Assembly: GCF_025972045.1 (NCBI RefSeq)
Contig: NZ_JAPDHX010000001.1
Span: forward strand, 848,787-912,786
Direction of reading: 5' to 3'
Length of the DNA: 64,000 nucleotides
Source: Micropruina sonneratiae
Lineage (GTDB): Bacteria; Actinomycetota; Actinomycetes; Propionibacteriales; Propionibacteriaceae
The notes beneath the pieces were generated by a model that saw only the letters and a list, made by a program, of their open reading frames with translations, did not search any database and was not told the DNA's origin. A program made the position numbers and the translations under genes. Shown piece after piece: positions 41,671-58,169 of this stretch (position 1 is the stretch's first letter; every line of letters begins with the position of its first letter).

Positions 41671-41721
41671 GCGTCCGGCCGACGCCGCCGGCCGCACGGC
41701 GCACGCCGCCCCACCTCGACG

Positions 41722-41777
41722 CTCGCCTAACCACCGAGCGCTCGCCAATGTTGGCGAGCGCTCGGTAGTCAGGCGAG
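41722..41777. terminator. Long nearly perfect palindrome, probable bidirectional terminator
   Basis: Outer arms CTCGCCT (41722-41728) and AGGCGAG (41771-41777), 5-nt unpaired sides, then a perfect 15-bp stem CCGAGCGCTCGCCAA (41734-41748) with TTGGCGAGCGCTCGG (41751-41765) around a 2-nt centre. No T-run follows. Each inner arm also contains the self-palindrome GAGCGCTC. It lies between the proS-permease unit and the riboswitch promoter, so it should insulate the riboswitch from read-through. A protein-binding role is also possible. Confidence 0.6.
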
Positions 41778-41811
41778 TGCGTGGAGGCGGGGGAAGGGCG
41801 AAGACAACCAA

Positions 41812-41837
41812 TTTGTGCTGGTCGACGTCGCTAGCCT
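41812..41837 (+). promoter_or_regulatory. Candidate promoter of the riboswitch transcript
   Basis: TAGCCT (41832-41837) is the -10 hexamer; the same hexamer serves dxr. TTTGTGC lies at 41812-41818, exactly 13 bp before it. The pduA promoter on the other strand has TTCGTGC, 13 bp, TAGCCT. Transcription would begin near 41844, right at the beginning of the cobalamin aptamer. A standard -35 with 17-bp spacing is absent, which suggests an activator is needed. Confidence 0.5.
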
Positions 41838-41843
41838 GGGACC

Positions 41844-42020
41844 ACAACAAGATCCGCTGGGCGGAGGGAAGCCGGTGAAAGACCGGCACTGACGCGCAAC
41901 CGTGAGTCGGCGTGGCCGACGAGTCGGAATGCTCCTCCCGGCGGTTAGGCCCTTGACCCGCTGTCGCGAGCGCACGGTAGGCGATCCGTCGTCCTTCGTG
42001 CATGCAGCAGAAGGACGACG
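41844..42020 (+). ncRNA. Cobalamin (B12) riboswitch
   Basis: The core matches the cobalamin aptamer closely: GGGAAGCCGGTGAAAGACC (41866-41884), GGCACTGACGCGCAACCGTGA (41884-41904, the CUGxCxCGCAACxGU block), then a GTCGGC/GCCGAC stem and the B12-box region GAGTCGGAATGCTCC (41921-41935) with CCCGGCGG. After the aptamer, a perfect 11-bp hairpin (41987-41997 with 42010-42020, 12-nt loop) contains the AAGGACG ribosome site of the next gene. This is the layout of a translation-blocking switch: with B12 bound the ribosome site would be hidden. The controlled gene is a degenerate tyrosine recombinase rather than a B12 gene. Confidence 0.9.
41987..42020 (+). promoter_or_regulatory. Ribosome-site-sequestering hairpin (riboswitch expression platform)
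   Basis: CGTCGTCCTTC (41987-41997) pairs perfectly with GAAGGACGACG (42010-42020). The second arm is the Shine-Dalgarno region, 3 nt before the ATG at 42024. The 12-nt loop GTGCATGCAGCA is available for the kissing contact that cobalamin switches use to sense ligand. Confidence 0.8.
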
Positions 42021-42023
42021 ACG

Positions 42024-42626
42024 ATGATCAGTCCGGTATCCACCCCTTCGCACCCACCGGCCCGCCTCTACGACCGCTTCCGGCGTCCGCTGCCTCCCCG
42101 CGCCGTCGCCGCGACCGCGCCCCCACCGGACGGTGGCATGCGCCCCTTCACCCCCGACGAGCTGGAGTGGGCGTGGGAGGCCTGGTGCGCGCAGTCGCCG
42201 GTGCTGGCCGACGCGCTGCTGGTGCTGGCGCGGACGGGGCTGCGCTGGGCGGAGTTGCGCGCGTTGCGGGTGGGCGACGTGGACGCGGACGTCGAGTCGG
42301 CCCTGGTGGCGCGCTCGGCGCCCGAACCGGAGCCGGCAGGGCCGCTGTCGCCCGACCGGGTGCGCCGGGTGCCGCTGGCGCCGCGGATCCGTGGGGCGGT
42401 CGCACGCGAGGTGGCCGGGCGGGACGCGGACGAACTCCTGTTCACCACCGCGCTGGGTGAGCAGTTGAACCGGACGCCGGTGCTGAGCCGGGTGCGCTGG
42501 TCGCAGACCGCCCGGGGCCGTCGGCTCACCGACCTGCGGCACACCGCGGCGTCGCTGTGGCTGGCCGAGGGCGTGGACGCGGCCACGGTCCGGCACTGGC
42601 TGGGGGAGCGCCGCCTCGCGGCCTAG
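42024..42626 (+). CDS. Degenerate tyrosine recombinase-like protein under B12 riboswitch control
   Basis: 200 residues. Only the catalytic-domain fold of a tyrosine recombinase is present: TGLRWAELRALRVGDVD (first Arg kept), a middle beta region, then LTDLRHTAASLWLAEGVDAA (second Arg kept, but the preceding His is Thr) and VRHWLGERRLAA, where the usual LGH is LGE and the protein stops before the nucleophile Tyr. The beta-hairpin Lys is also missing, and there is no N-terminal DNA-arm domain. It should therefore not cut DNA but could still bind it. The ATG lies within the riboswitch output region. The stop is 57 bp from the stop of convergent pduP. This could be a relic or a repurposed regulator. 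Confidence 0.75.
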   Translation: MISPVSTPSHPPARLYDRFRRPLPPRAVAATAPPPDGGMRPFTPDELEWAWEAWCAQSPVLADALLVLARTGLRWAELRALRVGDVDADVESALVARSAPEPEPAGPLSPDRVRRVPLAPRIRGAVAREVAGRDADELLFTTALGEQLNRTPVLSRVRWSQTARGRRLTDLRHTAASLWLAEGVDAATVRHWLGERRLAA

Positions 42627-42683: not shown

Positions 42684-44093
42684 CTACCGGACGTTCAGGC
42701 CGCCCACCAGCACACACCGTCGGCTGCGGGCGAAGTTCTTCGCCGAGGTGAGGCCCTCACCGGTCGGGCCGGCGATGGTGAAGGTGCAGTACCCCTCGCC
42801 GCCGATACCGATGCCGGCGTAGGACGGTCCGTTCTTCACGAAGATCGTGGTCTGGATGCGCTTGGCGAGCTTGGTCAGGGCGTTCACGTCGGCCGAGTGC
42901 ATGATCGCGGTGTGCCGGTTGCCGTGCTCGGCGATCACCGCCTTGTCCATGCCCTCGGCCAGGTCCCTCACCCGCACGATCGGCAGCACGGGCATCATCA
43001 ACTCGACCCTGACGAACGGATGGTCGAACGGGACCTCGGCGATCACCAACCGGGTGCCGGCGGGGGCGTCCACGCCGATCGCCGCGAGGATGGCGGTGGC
43101 GTCCTTGCCCACCCAGTCGGTGACGGCGTGGCGTCCGTCGACCACCAGGTCGGCCAGCCGGGCGATCAGCGCGGCGTCGCGCAACTCGTAGGCGCCGTGC
43201 TTGAGCATCTCGAACTTGAGCAGGTCGGCGATCCCCGCGACGGCCAGCACCTCCTTCTCGGCGGTGCAGGGCAGATTGTTGTCGAAGCTGGCTCCGTCCA
43301 CGATGTCCTTGGCCGCCTTGACGATGTCGGCGGTCGTGTCCACCAGGGCGGGGGGATTGCCGGCGCCGGCGCCGATCGCCTTCTTGCCGCTGGTCAGCAC
43401 CGCCTTGACGATGCCCGGTCCGCCGGTGGCGACCAGCATGCGCACCAGCTTGTGGCCGATCATCGCGTTGGTGTTCTCGATCGAGGGCTCGGTGACGGTG
43501 GTGATCAGGTTCGGCGGCGCCCCCGCGTCGGCCAGCCCGCGGTTCAGCTCGCGGATCAGCCAGTGCGTCACCTTCGTCGCGCGCGGATGCGGGCTGAACA
43601 CCACCGCGTTGCCGGCGGCCAGCATGCCGATGGCGTTGTTGATCACCGTCTCGGTCGGATTGGTGGTCGGGGTGATCGCCCCGACCACGCCGTACGGCGA
43701 GATCTCCACGGTGGTGAGGCCGTCGTCGCCCGACCAGGCCTGCGTGATCAGGTCCTCGGTGCCGGGCGTGAAGGACGCCGCCGCCCGGTTCTTGGCGATC
43801 TTGTCGGCGACATTGCCCATGCCGGTCTCCTCGACCGTCGCCCGGGCCATGTGCTCGAGGTGCTCGGGCTTCAACGCCACGTCGCGGATGACCTGCACGA
43901 ACCGGGCGCGGTCCTTCAGCGAGCAGTCCAGGTAGGCGCGGTACGCGGCGTCCGCGGCGGTGACGGCGGCGTCCATACTGGCGAAGACGCCGTCACCCCC
44001 CGGGTCGGACGCCGGCGCGCCGGCCTGGGCAAGGGTCGCCTGCACCACCTGGGCGACGACCCGGCGGACGTCTTCGGGGCTGATCGTGGTCAT
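42684..44093 (-). CDS. pduP: CoA-acylating propionaldehyde dehydrogenase
   Basis: 469 residues. It oxidises propionaldehyde to propionyl-CoA with NAD+ inside the microcompartment. The nucleophile Cys is in NNLPCTAEKEVL, the cofactor-binding part has AITPTTNPTETVINNAIGMLAAGN and TGGPGIVKAVL. Residues 1-20 (TTISPEDVRRVVAQVVQATL) form an amphipathic helix followed by an Ala/Pro linker, as expected for the targeting peptide of Pdu enzymes. It is the last gene of the long minus-strand operon; the ATG overlaps the pduO stop as ATGA. Confidence 0.95.
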   Translation of the reverse strand: MTTISPEDVRRVVAQVVQATLAQAGAPASDPGGDGVFASMDAAVTAADAAYRAYLDCSLKDRARFVQVIRDVALKPEHLEHMARATVEETGMGNVADKIAKNRAAASFTPGTEDLITQAWSGDDGLTTVEISPYGVVGAITPTTNPTETVINNAIGMLAAGNAVVFSPHPRATKVTHWLIRELNRGLADAGAPPNLITTVTEPSIENTNAMIGHKLVRMLVATGGPGIVKAVLTSGKKAIGAGAGNPPALVDTTADIVKAAKDIVDGASFDNNLPCTAEKEVLAVAGIADLLKFEMLKHGAYELRDAALIARLADLVVDGRHAVTDWVGKDATAILAAIGVDAPAGTRLVIAEVPFDHPFVRVELMMPVLPIVRVRDLAEGMDKAVIAEHGNRHTAIMHSADVNALTKLAKRIQTTIFVKNGPSYAGIGIGGEGYCTFTIAGPTGEGLTSAKNFARSRRCVLVGGLNVR

Positions 44094-45088
44094 TGTTCCT
44101 CCAGTACCGACAGTGCATGGGTGACGATGTCGACGTCCTGTTCGACGGTGCCCCCGGAGACTCCGAGGCCGCCGGCGATCAGGCCGTCGACGAAGACCGG
44201 CAGCCCGCCCCCGAAAACGACCACCCGGCCGCCGTTGGAGTGCTGGATGCCGTGCAGCGCACCCGCCGGGGTCGACGGGTCCTTCAGCGCCGCGGTGGGC
44301 AGCTTGAACGCCGCCGACGTGAACGCCTTGTTGAGGGCGATGTCGATGCTGCCCAGCAGCGAATCCGCCATCCGGTGCAGCAGCAACGGGTGGCCGCCGG
44401 CGTCCACCGCGGCGAAGACGATCGGCACCCCCACCTCGAGGGCTCGCGCCTCCGCCGCCTCAGCGGCCCGCTTGGTCGCGGCCAGGTCGAAACGGGTCAC
44501 GCCGGCCACCGAGGGGTCGCCCAGTGCCCTGGCGACCGCCTGCCGGACCAGTTGCTCGATGCGGGACAGGTCGTAGCTGTGCTCGGCCAGCCTGGCCAGC
44601 GCGTACAGGGTGTCGGAGAGGCGGTTGAGGTAGGTGATCAGCTCGGGACGCACCGGCTCGGTCTGTGCCAGGGTGAGCACCCGCCGCTCGGCGCGCCGGG
44701 TCACCGTGCGGGCCCGGTGCAGCGCGGCCGACGGCTTGTCCCGGCCCGGCACCACGAACGCCCGCTGCGGCCCCGTCACCTCCAGGCACATGTCGATCAG
44801 GCCCTCCAACTCGGTGACGTCGGCGGCGTCGATCGTGTTGTCGAGGATGTCGCGACCGGCCTGATCGGAGGCGAGTTCGGCGGCCAGCACGAACAGTCTC
44901 TGCTGGATGCCGTGCAGCGTGTCCTTCACCACCTGGTCGGTGGCGATGGCCTTGGCCTCGCCGATCGAGGAGTTCGCCTCGTCGACGGTGCCGTACGCCT
45001 CGACGGCCGGGCTCTGCTTGGGCACCCGCGAACCGCCGAACAGGCCGGTCAGGCCGCGGTCGCCGGTGCGGGTGTAGACGTTGGGCAT
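44090..45088 (-). CDS. pduO: PduO-type ATP:cob(I)alamin adenosyltransferase with GlcG/HbpS-like C-domain
   Basis: 332 residues, two domains. Residues 1-185 are a PduO adenosyltransferase: YTRTGDRGLTGLFGG at the N-terminus, EAYGTVDEANSSIG, and the ATP/cobalamin-binding VVPGRDKPSAALHRARTVT with TRRAERR. Residues 195-332 are a GlcG/HbpS-like domain (DUF336; VPIVFAAVDAGGHPLLLHRM, GALHGIQ, GGLPVF), which in homologues binds haem or cobalamin. It makes adenosylcobalamin for the diol dehydratase. The ATG overlaps the pduN stop by one base. Confidence 0.95.
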   Translation of the reverse strand: MPNVYTRTGDRGLTGLFGGSRVPKQSPAVEAYGTVDEANSSIGEAKAIATDQVVKDTLHGIQQRLFVLAAELASDQAGRDILDNTIDAADVTELEGLIDMCLEVTGPQRAFVVPGRDKPSAALHRARTVTRRAERRVLTLAQTEPVRPELITYLNRLSDTLYALARLAEHSYDLSRIEQLVRQAVARALGDPSVAGVTRFDLAATKRAAEAAEARALEVGVPIVFAAVDAGGHPLLLHRMADSLLGSIDIALNKAFTSAAFKLPTAALKDPSTPAGALHGIQHSNGGRVVVFGGGLPVFVDGLIAGGLGVSGGTVEQDVDIVTHALSVLEEQ

Positions 45089-51908: not shown

Positions 51909-53570
51909 TCAGACACTCTCGGGGCTGATCGCCTGCCGGATGGCCTGCAGTTGCGCCCACTTCTCGTCGCTGATCTGGTACCCGGTCTGCGGCCCGCGGT
52001 AGTCGTTGGGCTCGTTGACCGCGCTGATCACGGCGAAGTCGCCGGTGAGGATCGCCGAGGTGTGCAGGTAGTCACCCGCGACGCGCTGCTTGAGCATTCC
52101 GAACACCGATTTGGCGACATCGTCGTAACCGGCCCGGGCCAGTGCCTTCACGATGTCGACGCCGGTGAGCCCGCGTTTGAGCAGGTCCTCGGCGGCCTTC
52201 AGGTCCTCCACCACGTTGCGGTCCGGCATGTCCTGCGAGCCTCGCGCGTAGGTGGCCGCTTCCACCTCGGCGTCGGTCACCTCGGTCAGGCCGAGTTCGC
52301 GGAACAGCGCCTGGATCACCTTGGCCGCCTTGTTGCGGGCCGCCACCACGTCGTCCTCCAGCACCGGCACCAGCCCGCCGTCGACCTTCAGGTCGCGCTG
52401 AATGATCACCCAGTCGTCGTAGTCGTCGGCGTCCCAGTTCGAACCGGCGAACATGTTGTCGTAGTTGGGCGTGGCCGAGTAGCCGGAGCAGATGAAGTCG
52501 GTGCCGGGCACGAACTGCATCAGCGACCGGGCGACCCGGCGCAGGTCGGAGTGGGTGAACGTCTGGTCGTTGGACGACGCACACTCCAGATCGAGGGCGG
52601 TCGCGATCAGGTTCTCGGCGAGGATGGCCCGGATGCCGCCGGGCACCGCCGCGGGGACGCCGACGCAGGAGACCGATCCGTTCTGGATGCCCTGCGAGCC
52701 GGCCGCCTTGGTGATGTAGAGGCAGCGGGCCTCCAGGTACAGCATCGACTTGCCCTCGGCGTAGCCCATCTGCACCTCGGAGCCGGTGCCCGAGGTGAAC
52801 CGCATCTTCAGGCCACGAGACGCGTAGCAGGAGGCCAGGAAGGCCTTCGACCACGGAGTGTCGTCACCGTCCATGAACACCGGCTCGGTGCCGTAGACCG
52901 ACACCGTCTCGGCGTAGGCGGTGAAGCCGCGCATGCCGAGGTTGAGCTCGGTGGCCTCCTCCACCGCGCACTGGGTGAGGATGCCGGGACGTCCGACCTG
53001 GGCGCCGACCATCAGTGCGATGGCATTGAACGGTGCGTACCGGGCGATACCGACGGTGGTCTCCAGCTCGGCGAACCCACGCAGTGCAGCCTCGGCCGCA
53101 TCGGCCGCGATCTGCACCATGTTGTCCTTGAGGTTGGTGACGTGGGCCTGGTTCGCGGGCGACTTGCGGGCCCGCATCTTGGTCACCGCCATCATCATCT
53201 CGAGCACGGTCATCGTTCCGACGACCTCGGTGATCTTGGCCGGGGTCATCGCGGTGGTCAGTGCGACGACCTCGGCGCGCGGCACGTTGAAGTCGACCAG
53301 CTTGCGGGCCAACTCGAGCGAATCCGTCGCGCAGACCCGTTCGGCGTTGTCGAGCCGGATGCCGTAGTCGGCGATGAACGTGTCGATCATGTCGAAGTCG
53401 GCCCGCTTCTTGCCGTCCAGTTCGGTGACGACGCCGCCCTCGATCCTGATCGACGGCTTGGGGTCGTTGGGGCTGTTCATGGCGATCAGGCCCACCTCGG
53501 GCCATTCGGTCACGTAGCCGTCCTGGCTGACCGGACGGGCGTCCAGTGCCTCGAAACGCTTGCTTCTCAC
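51909..53570 (-). CDS. pduC: Propanediol dehydratase, large subunit
   Basis: 553 residues, the catalytic alpha subunit (TIM barrel). It is highly similar in wording to Klebsiella/Salmonella PduC: MRSKRFEALDARPVSQDGYV at the start, QAHVTNLKDN (Gln and His that bind substrate), ETTVGIARYAPFNAIALMVG (Glu170 equivalent), GSVSCVGVPAAVPGGI, SSNDQTFTHSDLRR (Asp335/Gln336 equivalents) and YSATPNYDNMF. It dehydrates 1,2-propanediol to propionaldehyde through adenosylcobalamin radicals; glycerol may also be used. The start is GTG at 53570. Confidence 0.97.
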   Translation of the reverse strand: MRSKRFEALDARPVSQDGYVTEWPEVGLIAMNSPNDPKPSIRIEGGVVTELDGKKRADFDMIDTFIADYGIRLDNAERVCATDSLELARKLVDFNVPRAEVVALTTAMTPAKITEVVGTMTVLEMMMAVTKMRARKSPANQAHVTNLKDNMVQIAADAAEAALRGFAELETTVGIARYAPFNAIALMVGAQVGRPGILTQCAVEEATELNLGMRGFTAYAETVSVYGTEPVFMDGDDTPWSKAFLASCYASRGLKMRFTSGTGSEVQMGYAEGKSMLYLEARCLYITKAAGSQGIQNGSVSCVGVPAAVPGGIRAILAENLIATALDLECASSNDQTFTHSDLRRVARSLMQFVPGTDFICSGYSATPNYDNMFAGSNWDADDYDDWVIIQRDLKVDGGLVPVLEDDVVAARNKAAKVIQALFRELGLTEVTDAEVEAATYARGSQDMPDRNVVEDLKAAEDLLKRGLTGVDIVKALARAGYDDVAKSVFGMLKQRVAGDYLHTSAILTGDFAVISAVNEPNDYRGPQTGYQISDEKWAQLQAIRQAISPESV

Positions 53571-55777: not shown

Positions 55778-56905
55778 TTACGCGACCTGGCGCAGGATCC
55801 CCGCCAGTTCGGCCTCCGACGGCTGCACCGGGTTGCCGGCGGTACAGAAGTCGACCCGGGCGGCGGCCGCGAGATCGGGCACGGCGGCCAGGAAGTCCGC
55901 GCTGGCGACCCCGGCCGCAGACACCGTCGCCGGCATCGACAACTCGTTGCGCAACCGCTCCACCCACCCGATCAGGGCCCGCACCAGGTTCCGGTCGCCG
56001 GACGCCGTGAGCCCCAGCGCCCGGGCCAACGCCGCGTAGCGCCGCGCGACCGGGCCTGGGTCACCGGGACGCCAGCCCAGGTCGCCGGCGTTGAAGTTGA
56101 TCACCGTGGGCAGCAGGATGCCGTTCAGCCGGCCGTGCGCGATCGGGAAGGCGCTGCCGATGGAGTGCGACAGTCCGTGCACGATGCCCAGCCCCGCGTT
56201 CTGGAAGGCGATCCCGGCCATGCAGGCCGCCGCATGCTGGTGCTCGCGGGCCACGGCGTCCGAACCGTCGCGGAAACACACCGGAAGATGCTCGCCTGCC
56301 AGCCGCAACGCCTTCTCGGCCAGTGCGTCGGAGAAGTCGTTGCAGCCGGTGGCGACGTAGGCCTCGATGGCGTGGCTTACGGCGTCCATGCCCGAGTCGG
56401 CGGTCAGCTTGGGAGGCGCGGTCAGCACCGCCTCGGGGTCGAGGATGGCCAACTCGGGAAGCATGTCGGCCGAGCTCAACGGCAGTTTGCGACCGTCGGC
56501 GCGGGTGACCACCGCGAAGGAGGTCACTTCCGAGCCGGAGCCGGACGTGGTCGGAATGACGGTCAGCCCCGCCGGCAGGTCGCGGCCCTGTTCGAGGGCC
56601 AGCTTGCGGACCGTCTTGGCGGTGTCGATGGGCGACCCACCGCCGAGCGCGACGATGCCCTCGGGTCCGAACTCGAGGAAGGCGGCCAGCCCGGCGCCGA
56701 CCGCGGCGGTGTCGGGGTTGGGCCGGACGCGGTCGAACACGGCGACCTCGGCGCCGCGCAGGGCCTCCTTGACCCGGCCGAACAGGGGAGTGGTCGCCAG
56801 GAAGGCGTCGGTGACGATCAGCACGCGCCGGCCGTCCAGGGTGGACAGTTCGTCCAGCGAGTCAGGCCCGTAGCGCAGTGTGGTCGTGAGTTGGAAGCGG
56901 TACAT
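55778..56905 (-). CDS. pduQ: Iron-containing propanol dehydrogenase
   Basis: 375 residues. It is a group III Fe-alcohol dehydrogenase: GGGSPIDTAKTVRKLA binds NAD, VIPTTSGSGSEVTSFAVV follows, and the Fe ligands are in DAVSHAIEAYV (Asp..His) and NAGLGIVHGLSHSIGSAF..AHG (His, His). It reduces propionaldehyde to 1-propanol and regenerates NAD+ for PduP. The ATG at 56905 lies within the end of pocR with GGGAGA 8 nt upstream; a GTG at 56923 is the other option. Both genes are co-transcribed. Confidence 0.9.
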   Translation of the reverse strand: MYRFQLTTTLRYGPDSLDELSTLDGRRVLIVTDAFLATTPLFGRVKEALRGAEVAVFDRVRPNPDTAAVGAGLAAFLEFGPEGIVALGGGSPIDTAKTVRKLALEQGRDLPAGLTVIPTTSGSGSEVTSFAVVTRADGRKLPLSSADMLPELAILDPEAVLTAPPKLTADSGMDAVSHAIEAYVATGCNDFSDALAEKALRLAGEHLPVCFRDGSDAVAREHQHAAACMAGIAFQNAGLGIVHGLSHSIGSAFPIAHGRLNGILLPTVINFNAGDLGWRPGDPGPVARRYAALARALGLTASGDRNLVRALIGWVERLRNELSMPATVSAAGVASADFLAAVPDLAAAARVDFCTAGNPVQPSEAELAGILRQVA

Positions 56906-58169
56906 CGGCGGGTCTCCCGTCACGCGCGGAACACTGGCGCCGGTACTCGCTGGGCGACATTCCGGTGTGCGCCCGGAACACCCTGGAGAAGTAGTTGACC
57001 TGCTTGAAGTCGAGGTCGGCCGCGATCCTCTGCACCGGCGTTTCGGTGCACGCTAACAACAGCCGCGCCCGGGCGATCCGCCAGGCCGTCACATACGACA
57101 CGAATGTGTAGCCGGTGACCGATTTGAACAACTTCGACAGGTGGCCGGGGGAGAAGTGGGTGGCGGCGGCCGCCTCGGTCAGCGACAGGGCGCGGTTGGG
57201 GTGCCGGGCGATCGTGTTCAGCAGGTCACGCAGGTCGCGCCGTCGGGCCGGATGCGAGCGCATCACCTCGTCGAGGATCATGCCCAGCGTCCGCTCGAGG
57301 TAGAGCTGGACCTGGTAGCGGTTGGTCGAGGCGGTGCGCCGGTCACGGTGTCGCTGCACCACCCCAGTCAGGTGCGGCGCCAGCCGGGGGGTCAGCTCGC
57401 GCGCCACCCCGAGCAGCCCGTCCTCCAGCTCGACCAGGGCCTCGGCCACCCCGGCCGGGTCGCGGTAGGCGGCGTCCAGTCGCCGGCTGACCAGGCCGTA
57501 GGCCGTGGCCAGATCCTCGGCGCCCAGCGCCTCGCGCAGTCTCGGCAGGGCCGCTTCGGGCTCGGCGGCGGGCGCCGGCGCAATCGCGGGCTCGGCGACG
57601 ATCGACAGCAGCCGGGTCTGGCGAACGGGCGGCCGGGCGGGGATCGGCAGCACCGTGACCGATCGGTGCCGGACGCCGTCGATGCCGGCTGCCAGCCCGA
57701 GCAGGGTCGTGGCGGCGGCCCGGATCTTGCGCCGGCTCAGCGTGGGCACCTGGTCGTACAGCACCGTCAACTGTCGATCGCCGCGCCACGACGACCCGTG
57801 GCTGAGGAAGTCGGGTTGTTCGGTCTCGGGGACGCGGACCTGGCCGCACAGGATGGCGCCCACGTAGCTGTCGCCGTCGGTGATCGGGACGCCGAAATCG
57901 ACCAGCCCCGAATGGCAGCGGTAGACGACCGGGGAGCCTTCGATCATCGACTGCAGGCCGCCGTGGGCGTCGCAGCCGTGGCACATCCGGCTGCGCACCG
58001 GGTCGGAGCGGGTGAGCCTGCAGAAGTCGGTGAAGGCGACCGTCTGGGTGACCGGGGTGCCGCGCGGGTCGACGGCGACGGTCGCCAACCCGGTCGCCTC
58101 GGAGAAGTCCTCCAGAACCTGTTCGAGGTGCTCCAGATCGAGCGCCGCACCCATGCCCCGTTGCGCCAT
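56862..58169 (-). CDS. pocR: AraC-family regulator with PocR sensory domain
   Basis: 435 residues. Residues ~10-150 are a PocR domain (LEQVLEDFSEATGLATVAVD, FCRLTRSDPVRSRMCHGCDAHGG, FGVPITDGDSYVGAILCGQVR), with the Cys residues (RMCHGCDAHG) that mark this ligand-binding module. Residues ~200-310 are helical. The last ~100 residues carry two AraC helix-turn-helix motifs (LSLTEAAAATHFSPGHLSKLFK; VQRIAADLDFKQVNYFSRVFR; GMSPSEYRR). PocR activates pdu (and often cob) genes on propanediol in enterobacteria. A TACGCT -10 lies at 58199-58204; GGAGG precedes the ATG. Confidence 0.92.
   Translation of the reverse strand: MAQRGMGAALDLEHLEQVLEDFSEATGLATVAVDPRGTPVTQTVAFTDFCRLTRSDPVRSRMCHGCDAHGGLQSMIEGSPVVYRCHSGLVDFGVPITDGDSYVGAILCGQVRVPETEQPDFLSHGSSWRGDRQLTVLYDQVPTLSRRKIRAAATTLLGLAAGIDGVRHRSVTVLPIPARPPVRQTRLLSIVAEPAIAPAPAAEPEAALPRLREALGAEDLATAYGLVSRRLDAAYRDPAGVAEALVELEDGLLGVARELTPRLAPHLTGVVQRHRDRRTASTNRYQVQLYLERTLGMILDEVMRSHPARRRDLRDLLNTIARHPNRALSLTEAAAATHFSPGHLSKLFKSVTGYTFVSYVTAWRIARARLLLACTETPVQRIAADLDFKQVNYFSRVFRAHTGMSPSEYRRQCSARDGRPADVPLPTHDHTALRA

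Follow-up and report, generated by a model that had tools for sequence, protein, structure and literature searches.

The window (the whole stretch of DNA analysed, 64,000 nucleotides of the Micropruina sonneratiae genome) carries on its forward strand a cobalamin riboswitch and, directly behind it, a short gene derived from a recombinase. This gene runs tail to tail into the last gene of a pdu operon, which is encoded on the opposite strand. The features concerned are the following.

41832..41837, plus strand: possible -10 box TAGCCT, directly 5' of the riboswitch (from the sequence)
41840..41990, plus strand: cobalamin (AdoCbl) riboswitch, aptamer and 3' kissing-loop domain (RF01482, 49.2 bits; model R1, 135.7 bits)
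41957..41984, plus strand: stem-loop resembling P13; its 3' strand is a possible competitor for the anti-Shine-Dalgarno (alignment to the RF01482 3' stem, and folds; limits set by reading the sequence)
41987..41997, plus strand: anti-Shine-Dalgarno strand (11-bp pairing with 42010-42020)
42010..42020, plus strand: Shine-Dalgarno strand GAAGGACGACG, directly 5' of the start codon (sequence and folds)
42024..42626, plus strand: riboswitch-controlled ORF of 200 aa, recombinase-derived, without the Tyr and the HxxR His
42684..44093, minus strand: pduP-type aldehyde dehydrogenase, last gene of the pdu operon, tail to tail with the ORF (Pfam Aldedh)
44090..45088, minus strand: PduO-type cobalamin adenosyltransferase fused to an HbpS-like domain (Pfam Cob_adeno_trans)
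51909..53570, minus strand: ORF with homologues in 46 of 198 genomes, by gene order probably PduC, the large subunit of B12-dependent diol dehydratase
56862..58169, minus strand: PocR-AraC regulator of the pdu locus (Pfam PocR, E 3e-41, and HTH_18)

The riboswitch was detected with the Rfam model of AdoCbl riboswitches, RF01482, which matched positions 41840-41990 of the plus strand with an E-value of 8.8e-8 over the 1,041 bases searched. The match covers the full model (positions 1-149 of 149) and includes the conserved core. Cut-offs are 50 bits for RF01482 and 31.5 bits for RF00174, both families of clan CL00101, and the window riboswitch lies just below each of them (49.2 and 28.7 bits respectively); a scan of the whole window at gathering thresholds gave no match. 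In the M. sonneratiae genome, RF00174 detects 8 sites at E ≤ 10, 3 of which are above the cut-off. Judging from the sequence, we conclude that 41840-41990 is a genuine cobalamin riboswitch. No sigma-70 consensus promoter pair was found by a promoter scan of the plus strand around the leader.

The start codon of the ORF is located 34 bases 3' of the end of the RF01482 match, and the ORF is the sole candidate gene 3' of the riboswitch on the plus strand before the convergent pduP-type gene, from which it is separated by 57 nt. By Pfam (PF00589, E 1.4e-9), its residues 58-194 correspond to part of the catalytic domain of a tyrosine recombinase. In the pdu locus itself, Pfam identifies the cobalamin adenosyltransferase (PduO), three BMC proteins, an Fe-ADH and the PocR-AraC regulator. 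An earlier note on this DNA had read the aptamer core as that of a cobalamin riboswitch, the 200-residue recombinase-like protein as the only gene it could control, and the neighbourhood as a B12-dependent propanediol locus. All three claims are borne out, the first by a covariance match that is significant in context though under the Rfam cut-off.

A palindrome of about 80 bases (41710-41791) is found between the TauE-like gene and the riboswitch. It was considered as a recombinase site and rejected, since about 20 copies are dispersed in the genome (41 half-sites with at most 3 mismatches, versus 2 control matches). It is therefore not specific to the locus, and resembles a palindromic repeat scattered over the genome. 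Some miRNA families also matched this palindrome, each with a score under its cut-off.

Homologues of the ORF were searched in 198 genomes of the Propionibacteriaceae, 84 of which had some integrase match at E ≤ 0.001. The riboswitch-ORF pair was found in nine of the 198, spread over three genera: the window genome and genomes G117, G118, G119, G120, G142, G148, G154 and G156. An exact-pattern scan of named genomes returned seven records, namely Propionibacterium cyclohexanicum (G119), P. australiense (G118), P. acidifaciens (G117), two Propionicimonas MAGs (G154 and G156) and two further actinobacterial MAGs (G142 and G148). No P. freudenreichii record was among these seven. G120 is probably this species: it falls in the same genus group as the named Propionibacterium species, and its pdu genes have no pocR next to them, as in strain DSM 20271 according to excerpts of PMC8149966.

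The eight homologues end, like the window protein, before the catalytic tyrosine. A cobalamin riboswitch match was found 5' of all 8 truncated homologues, versus 0 of 11 intact-type loci (at one of these, L019, the contig is too short to judge). Four of the eight sister copies are clearly above a cut-off (G119 with 50.8 bits for RF01482; G154, G142 and G120 with 39.8, 39.2 and 35.9 bits for RF00174), and two others (G148, 50; G117, 31.5) are exactly at it as far as the printed digits show. The last two are under the RF01482 cut-off of 50, G156 with 48.6 bits and G118, the weakest, with 33.8 bits (E 0.021). By eye, all nine leaders have a TANNNT hexamer at the position of the possible -10 box of the window, and a purine-rich stretch similar to that of the window precedes the start codon in the 8 others.

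A home-made covariance model, R1, was trained on the nine leaders. In the 198 genomes it scored them at 116.8-143.3 bits, and the next match at 84.6 bits; the scores of the nine are circular because all of them trained the model, which is not the case of the gap beneath them. This search used strict filters and scored 17 candidates per genome, so that weak copies could be missed. Among 391 genomes drawn from the order, 11 matches passed E 1e-13. Seven belong to the nine, G154 and G156 being absent from this result list, presumably because they were not drawn; the four others (G121, G153, G355 and G381) score 82.8-86.8 bits. At 21 of the next-best R1 sites, G121 and G153 included, we read by eye one downstream ORF each, chosen by base composition. 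None looked recombinase-like: many resemble secreted repeat proteins, and the others include ECF-type transporter proteins, a permease of FecCD/BtuC type and a glutaredoxin similar to NrdH. Among the 198 family genomes, this riboswitch subtype was found only before the disarmed-recombinase gene.

We now turn to the protein. When 33 sequences were placed on a tree, the nine truncated proteins grouped in a single clade (100/99), whose position within the intact relatives, mostly tRNA-linked integrases without the switch, rests on weaker branches (82/82 and 83/92). The catalytic tyrosine, present in 10 of 10 intact relatives, is found in none of the nine. The histidine of the HxxR motif is kept in 2 (the window protein has a Thr) and that of box III in 3, against 10 of 10 intact relatives in both cases. 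Two invariant lysines of the beta-hairpin are missing from all nine; one of them is presumably the catalytic lysine of the recombinase family. The box-I arginine is present in all nine and the box-II arginine in eight, G120 having lost it. None of the nine thus has the full set expected of an active tyrosine recombinase, i.e. the Tyr nucleophile together with the HxxR His and the beta-hairpin Lys. As for the remainder of the sequence, 37 of the 53 positions invariant in nine full-length relatives are retained in at least 8 of the 9 proteins. Loss is concentrated on catalytic positions and, as far as residues can tell, the nine proteins are disarmed rather than merely decayed.

The AlphaFold2 model of the window protein (pLDDT 89) gave 40 PDB matches at E ≤ 0.001, the best being Tn1549 integrase and XerA. 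The 50 best matches listed are all tyrosine-recombinase entries, and the predicted fold is that of the catalytic domain. The N-terminal region covering the core-binding part is present in four proteins (G119, G117, G156 and G118, 278-299 aa) and lacking in the five others, window protein included (180-224 aa), which weakens the case for a DNA-binding role. Pfam, run on three of the longer proteins, recognizes a SAM-like integrase domain in G119 and G117, G156 being below match. On the tree, G156 is placed among the copies without the N-terminal region, implying that the core-binding part was lost repeatedly.

Such repeated losses would suit a decaying relic, i.e. an old integrase gene that acquired a riboswitch and is now being lost, and so would the fast evolution of the ORF. 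For the ORF, dN/dS amounts to 0.27 in the closest pair and to 0.38-0.55 among the window and group g23 members, where that of pduP, in the same comparisons, is lower (0.21-0.30). Compared with the window, the ORF has a dN/dS of 0.42-0.79 (eight genomes) and pduP of 0.22-0.38 (six genomes). Values for the ORF reach 1.02 between groups g20 and g23, and lie between 0.55 and 0.79 for G120 against all partners, indicating that constraint is weaker, or saturated, over that distance. The G120 copy is also the most eroded one, with its box-II Arg gone and PF00589 under cut-off. Yet in all 36 pairs, amino-acid changes are fewer than in each of 500 randomisations (pairs are non-independent, and the alignment was made on proteins). 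Moreover, the pair arose once and was then inherited by, or spread to, three genera, with an open frame and a riboswitch in nine genomes out of nine, and the losses bear on catalytic positions. All in all, we consider decay improbable.

A relic confined to the window genome had been one of the two readings of the earlier note, the other being a new regulator tied to B12. The former is rejected, because the pair exists in eight further genomes (nine of 198 in total, over three genera), its protein bears marks of purifying selection, and catalytic residues have been lost specifically. The latter is, from sequence, the most likely reading of the disarmed protein. What that note would have taken as refutation was not observed: the covariance match is significant in context, none of the nine leaders precedes a B12 gene, and the ORF is conserved. 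We also considered a riboswitch formerly serving a B12 gene at the window site: no trace of it was found, in a search that covered the 3' side of pduP in 19 of the 51 pduP-positive genomes without the pair. The existence of a conserved unit made of a riboswitch and a disarmed recombinase is well supported.

How might the switch operate? In the window, the Shine-Dalgarno (SD) and anti-SD strands form a hairpin of 11 bp (-23.8 kcal/mol, z -4.85). This hairpin forms in all nine leaders when the part 3' of P13 is folded alone. When the whole 3' domain is folded, it is the best fold in four (window, G117, G118 and G120), another structure being preferred in the five others. Compared with shuffled sequences, z ranges from -4.85 to -2.53 in seven leaders, and is -1.38 in G156 and -1.62 in G154. 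One pair of the hairpin, examined by eye, differs on both sides, being A-U in G117 and G118 and G-C in most others. Removing the P13 strand clearly increased the masking of the SD in G156, G154 and G119 (SD paired at 0.11-0.32 in the free domain versus 0.66-0.92), increased it slightly in G148, G142 and G118, and left it unchanged in the window, G117 and G120. The window hairpin is so stable in silico that it masks the SD with or without P13, and switching was not reproduced there.

In G156, G154 and G119, the SD stays mostly accessible as long as the P13 strand can pair, and becomes masked once this strand is removed, which is the order expected of an OFF switch. An OFF design is therefore plausible, on the basis of these predicted folds, for the riboswitch family of the nine leaders. 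With the opposite sign, B12 would turn the gene on, and the protein would activate pdu or signal the presence of the cofactor. This would tie the gene to B12-dependent catabolism equally well, and the order of states is unreadable from sequence alone. Besides the folding order of the three leaders, it has against it that other cobalamin riboswitches of the family precede, by eye, uptake-type and NrdH-type genes, a sensible place for OFF switches. We hold a switch of opposite sign to be very improbable.

We then compared the distribution of the pair with that of pdu genes. A pduC gene was detected in 46 of the 198 family genomes and in 8 of the 9 with the pair (hypergeometric P 3.8e-5, uncorrected for kinship). 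In these eight genomes the ORF points at a pdu or eut-pdu cluster, and upstream neighbours vary. In six, ORF and pduP converge at distances under 600 bp, the gaps measuring 57 (window), 21 (G148), 74 (G142), 145 (G156), 546 (G154) and 213 nt (G120). In G117, a permease gene separates ORF and pduP, 4.4 kb apart; in G118, the distance is 10.9 kb and the interval contains a eut cluster, that is another B12-dependent microcompartment pathway. The five other genomes of the window's genus have neither pdu nor the ORF. Compared with the g23 holders, the window pduC is about 91% identical, versus 77-78% for prolyl-tRNA synthetase, a contrast which may reflect rate differences alone; horizontal transfer of pdu and ORF into the window's genus may also be its source.

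Several genes were noticed around the pair in individual genomes. The eut cluster of P. australiense (L092, 5706-16236) comprises EutA, EutB, EutC, an aldehyde dehydrogenase, two BMC proteins, EutQ, EutH and a transporter. A small ORF with a GIY-YIG domain is located between ORF and pduP in G154 (L046, 10345-10680), and a PemK/MazF-like toxin gene lies directly 5' of the riboswitch in G148 (L043, 9019-9549); G142 has a homologue of this toxin gene in the corresponding position. In P. cyclohexanicum (L047), the gene directly 3' of the ORF is RecO.

The convergent arrangement raises the possibility that the protein is incidental. The transcript made when B12 is scarce would continue past the ORF, enter the convergent pdu operon from its 3' end, and silence it by antisense RNA or polymerase collision. 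Known antisense-acting riboswitches are indeed placed at the 3' end of, and convergent with, their target operon or gene, as far as can be judged from excerpts of PMC9943018 and, for AspocR, PMC8079631. The six genomes with gaps of 21-546 nt have this geometry, and no terminator-like site was found between ORF and pduP in the window, a search in which a terminator without T-run would be missed. However, a hairpin able to mask the SD, as found in nine leaders of nine, would be pointless for an untranslated RNA; selection at the codon level argues against a dispensable protein; and pduP is remote in two genomes (G117 and G118), while none was detected in G119. An exclusively antisense action is therefore quite improbable in our view.

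The pair and pdu are not strictly associated. Among the 46 pduC-positive genomes, 38 had no pair in the searches made (some genomes are incomplete), so that pdu does not need the pair. Conversely, P. cyclohexanicum gave no pduC or pduP match, and has kept riboswitch and ORF. A pduP gene is present in 59 of the 198 genomes, 51 of which are without the pair. In 19 of these 51, the 3' side of pduP was searched and contained neither a riboswitch (best 17.0 bits, E 0.17, where G118's own copy scored 135.9 bits) nor an ORF homologue better than E 2.1, a result that is partial for those of the 19 contigs that end within a few kb. A PocR is encoded in the pdu locus of the window, G148, G154, G117 (in part) and G118.

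These exceptions leave room for a pair that is controlled by B12 and directed at something else: another target linked to B12 supply, or an attachment site to be shielded from intact integrases of the same family, its adjacency to pdu being due to joint inheritance. The pair without pdu in P. cyclohexanicum and the many pdu genomes without the pair would fit such a target, as would the position of intact-type relatives, which are adjacent to tRNA-Ala(CGC) or tRNA-Thr(CGT) in 9 of 11 loci. It accounts poorly for the eight pdu genomes where the ORF is aimed at a pdu or eut-pdu cluster despite differing upstream neighbours, and no link between B12 shortage and defence against integrases was observed. 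We regard a target outside pdu as rather unlikely.

Our leading hypothesis, held at somewhat less than even confidence, is that of a translational OFF switch, responding to B12, on a non-cutting, recombinase-derived regulator of B12-dependent catabolism. Binding of AdoCbl would stabilise the aptamer and the kissing stem; the anti-SD, thus available, would mask the SD, and the protein would consequently be made only when B12 is short. The disarmed protein could then bind DNA without cutting it, by analogy with MrpR of phage SPbeta, and lower the expression of the adjoining B12-dependent operon. The diol dehydratase and the microcompartment would thus not be built in the absence of their cofactor. 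An antisense effect on the convergent pdu operon may act in addition; alone, it would be insufficient because it leaves the conserved protein and the SD hairpin unexplained. In this scheme the target, the sign of the regulation and the DNA binding of the disarmed protein are all inferred. A regulator of pdu has against it the 38 pduC genomes without the pair and P. cyclohexanicum, the PocR already encoded in five of the loci, the five proteins without core-binding part, the eroded G120 copy and the dN/dS reaching 1.02. The same holds for the window SD, masked in silico with or without P13, for the alternative 3' fold of five leaders, and for the MrpR structure 8A0A, which is absent among the 50 fold-search matches listed.

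A broader reading, put forward more tentatively still, is that the Propionibacteriaceae acquired, in a single event, an integrase of phage or ICE type, which came under the control of a B12 riboswitch and lost its catalytic function. It would have founded a new family of proteins regulating microcompartment operons under B12 starvation, the protein counterpart of Listeria AspocR and EutX. If true, vitamin riboswitches tuning B12-dependent catabolism would be joined with dead recombinases reused as DNA-binding regulators. In the parts of open-licence papers covered by our literature search, no cobalamin riboswitch before a recombinase-like gene was recognisable. If G120 is, as is probable, P. 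freudenreichii, the pair also provides this food-grade B12 producer with a candidate regulator for its pdu locus 2, where a regulator is missing; excerpts of PMC8149966 describe no annotated regulator near that locus.

Among known systems, Rli55/EutX is an ANTAR-decoy RNA controlling EutV. As here, a B12 riboswitch controls the regulator of a B12-dependent microcompartment pathway, but the output is a decoy RNA there and a protein in the present case. Excerpts of PMC8079631 name Rli55 and describe B12 riboswitches of Listeria as acting through the AspocR and Rli55 RNAs. In AspocR/Rli39 of L. monocytogenes, a B12 riboswitch likewise lies beside pdu regulation, and full AspocR output is obtained without B12 (PMC8079631, same excerpts). 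AspocR is however an antisense RNA to pocR, controlled by transcription termination, whereas the window pair has a conserved protein, a likely SD-masking platform, and a location at the pduP end of the operon.

For the protein, the closest parallel is MrpR (YopR), the master repressor of phage SPbeta, which according to excerpts of PMC10516654 has a tyrosine-recombinase fold, binds DNA and is devoid of recombinase activity. What is shared is the fold class with lost activity. The two differ in what was lost: MrpR keeps the Tyr, the Lys and the CB domain, and lacks the box-I Arg and the His residues, while the nine riboswitch-controlled proteins have lost Tyr, Lys and mostly His, keep the box-I and, with one exception, box-II Arg, and are often without CB. 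The nearest relatives are ten intact integrases (L015, L016, L018-L021, L023-L025 and L027), which share 45-50% identity with the window ORF along the aligned stretch. Unlike the disarmed proteins, all ten have the Tyr and His residues, and a tRNA gene is adjoining in 8 of 10; no riboswitch match was found 5' of them, L019 excepted for the reason given above.

The pair, most often located at the end of the genes for B12-dependent propanediol breakdown, suggests an unrecognised B12-controlled regulator in propionic-acid bacteria. Its aptamer belongs to the same clan as the sense cobalamin riboswitches, whose published representatives in P. freudenreichii precede cbiL, cbiB and mutA (excerpts of PMC5644110). 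The other copies read here by eye precede transporter-, NrdH- and surface-protein-like genes and, unlike the nine leaders, none precedes a recombinase-like gene. Many cobalamin riboswitches of the family (L105-L125) are followed, by eye, by genes for secreted repeat proteins, possibly B12-binding surface proteins.
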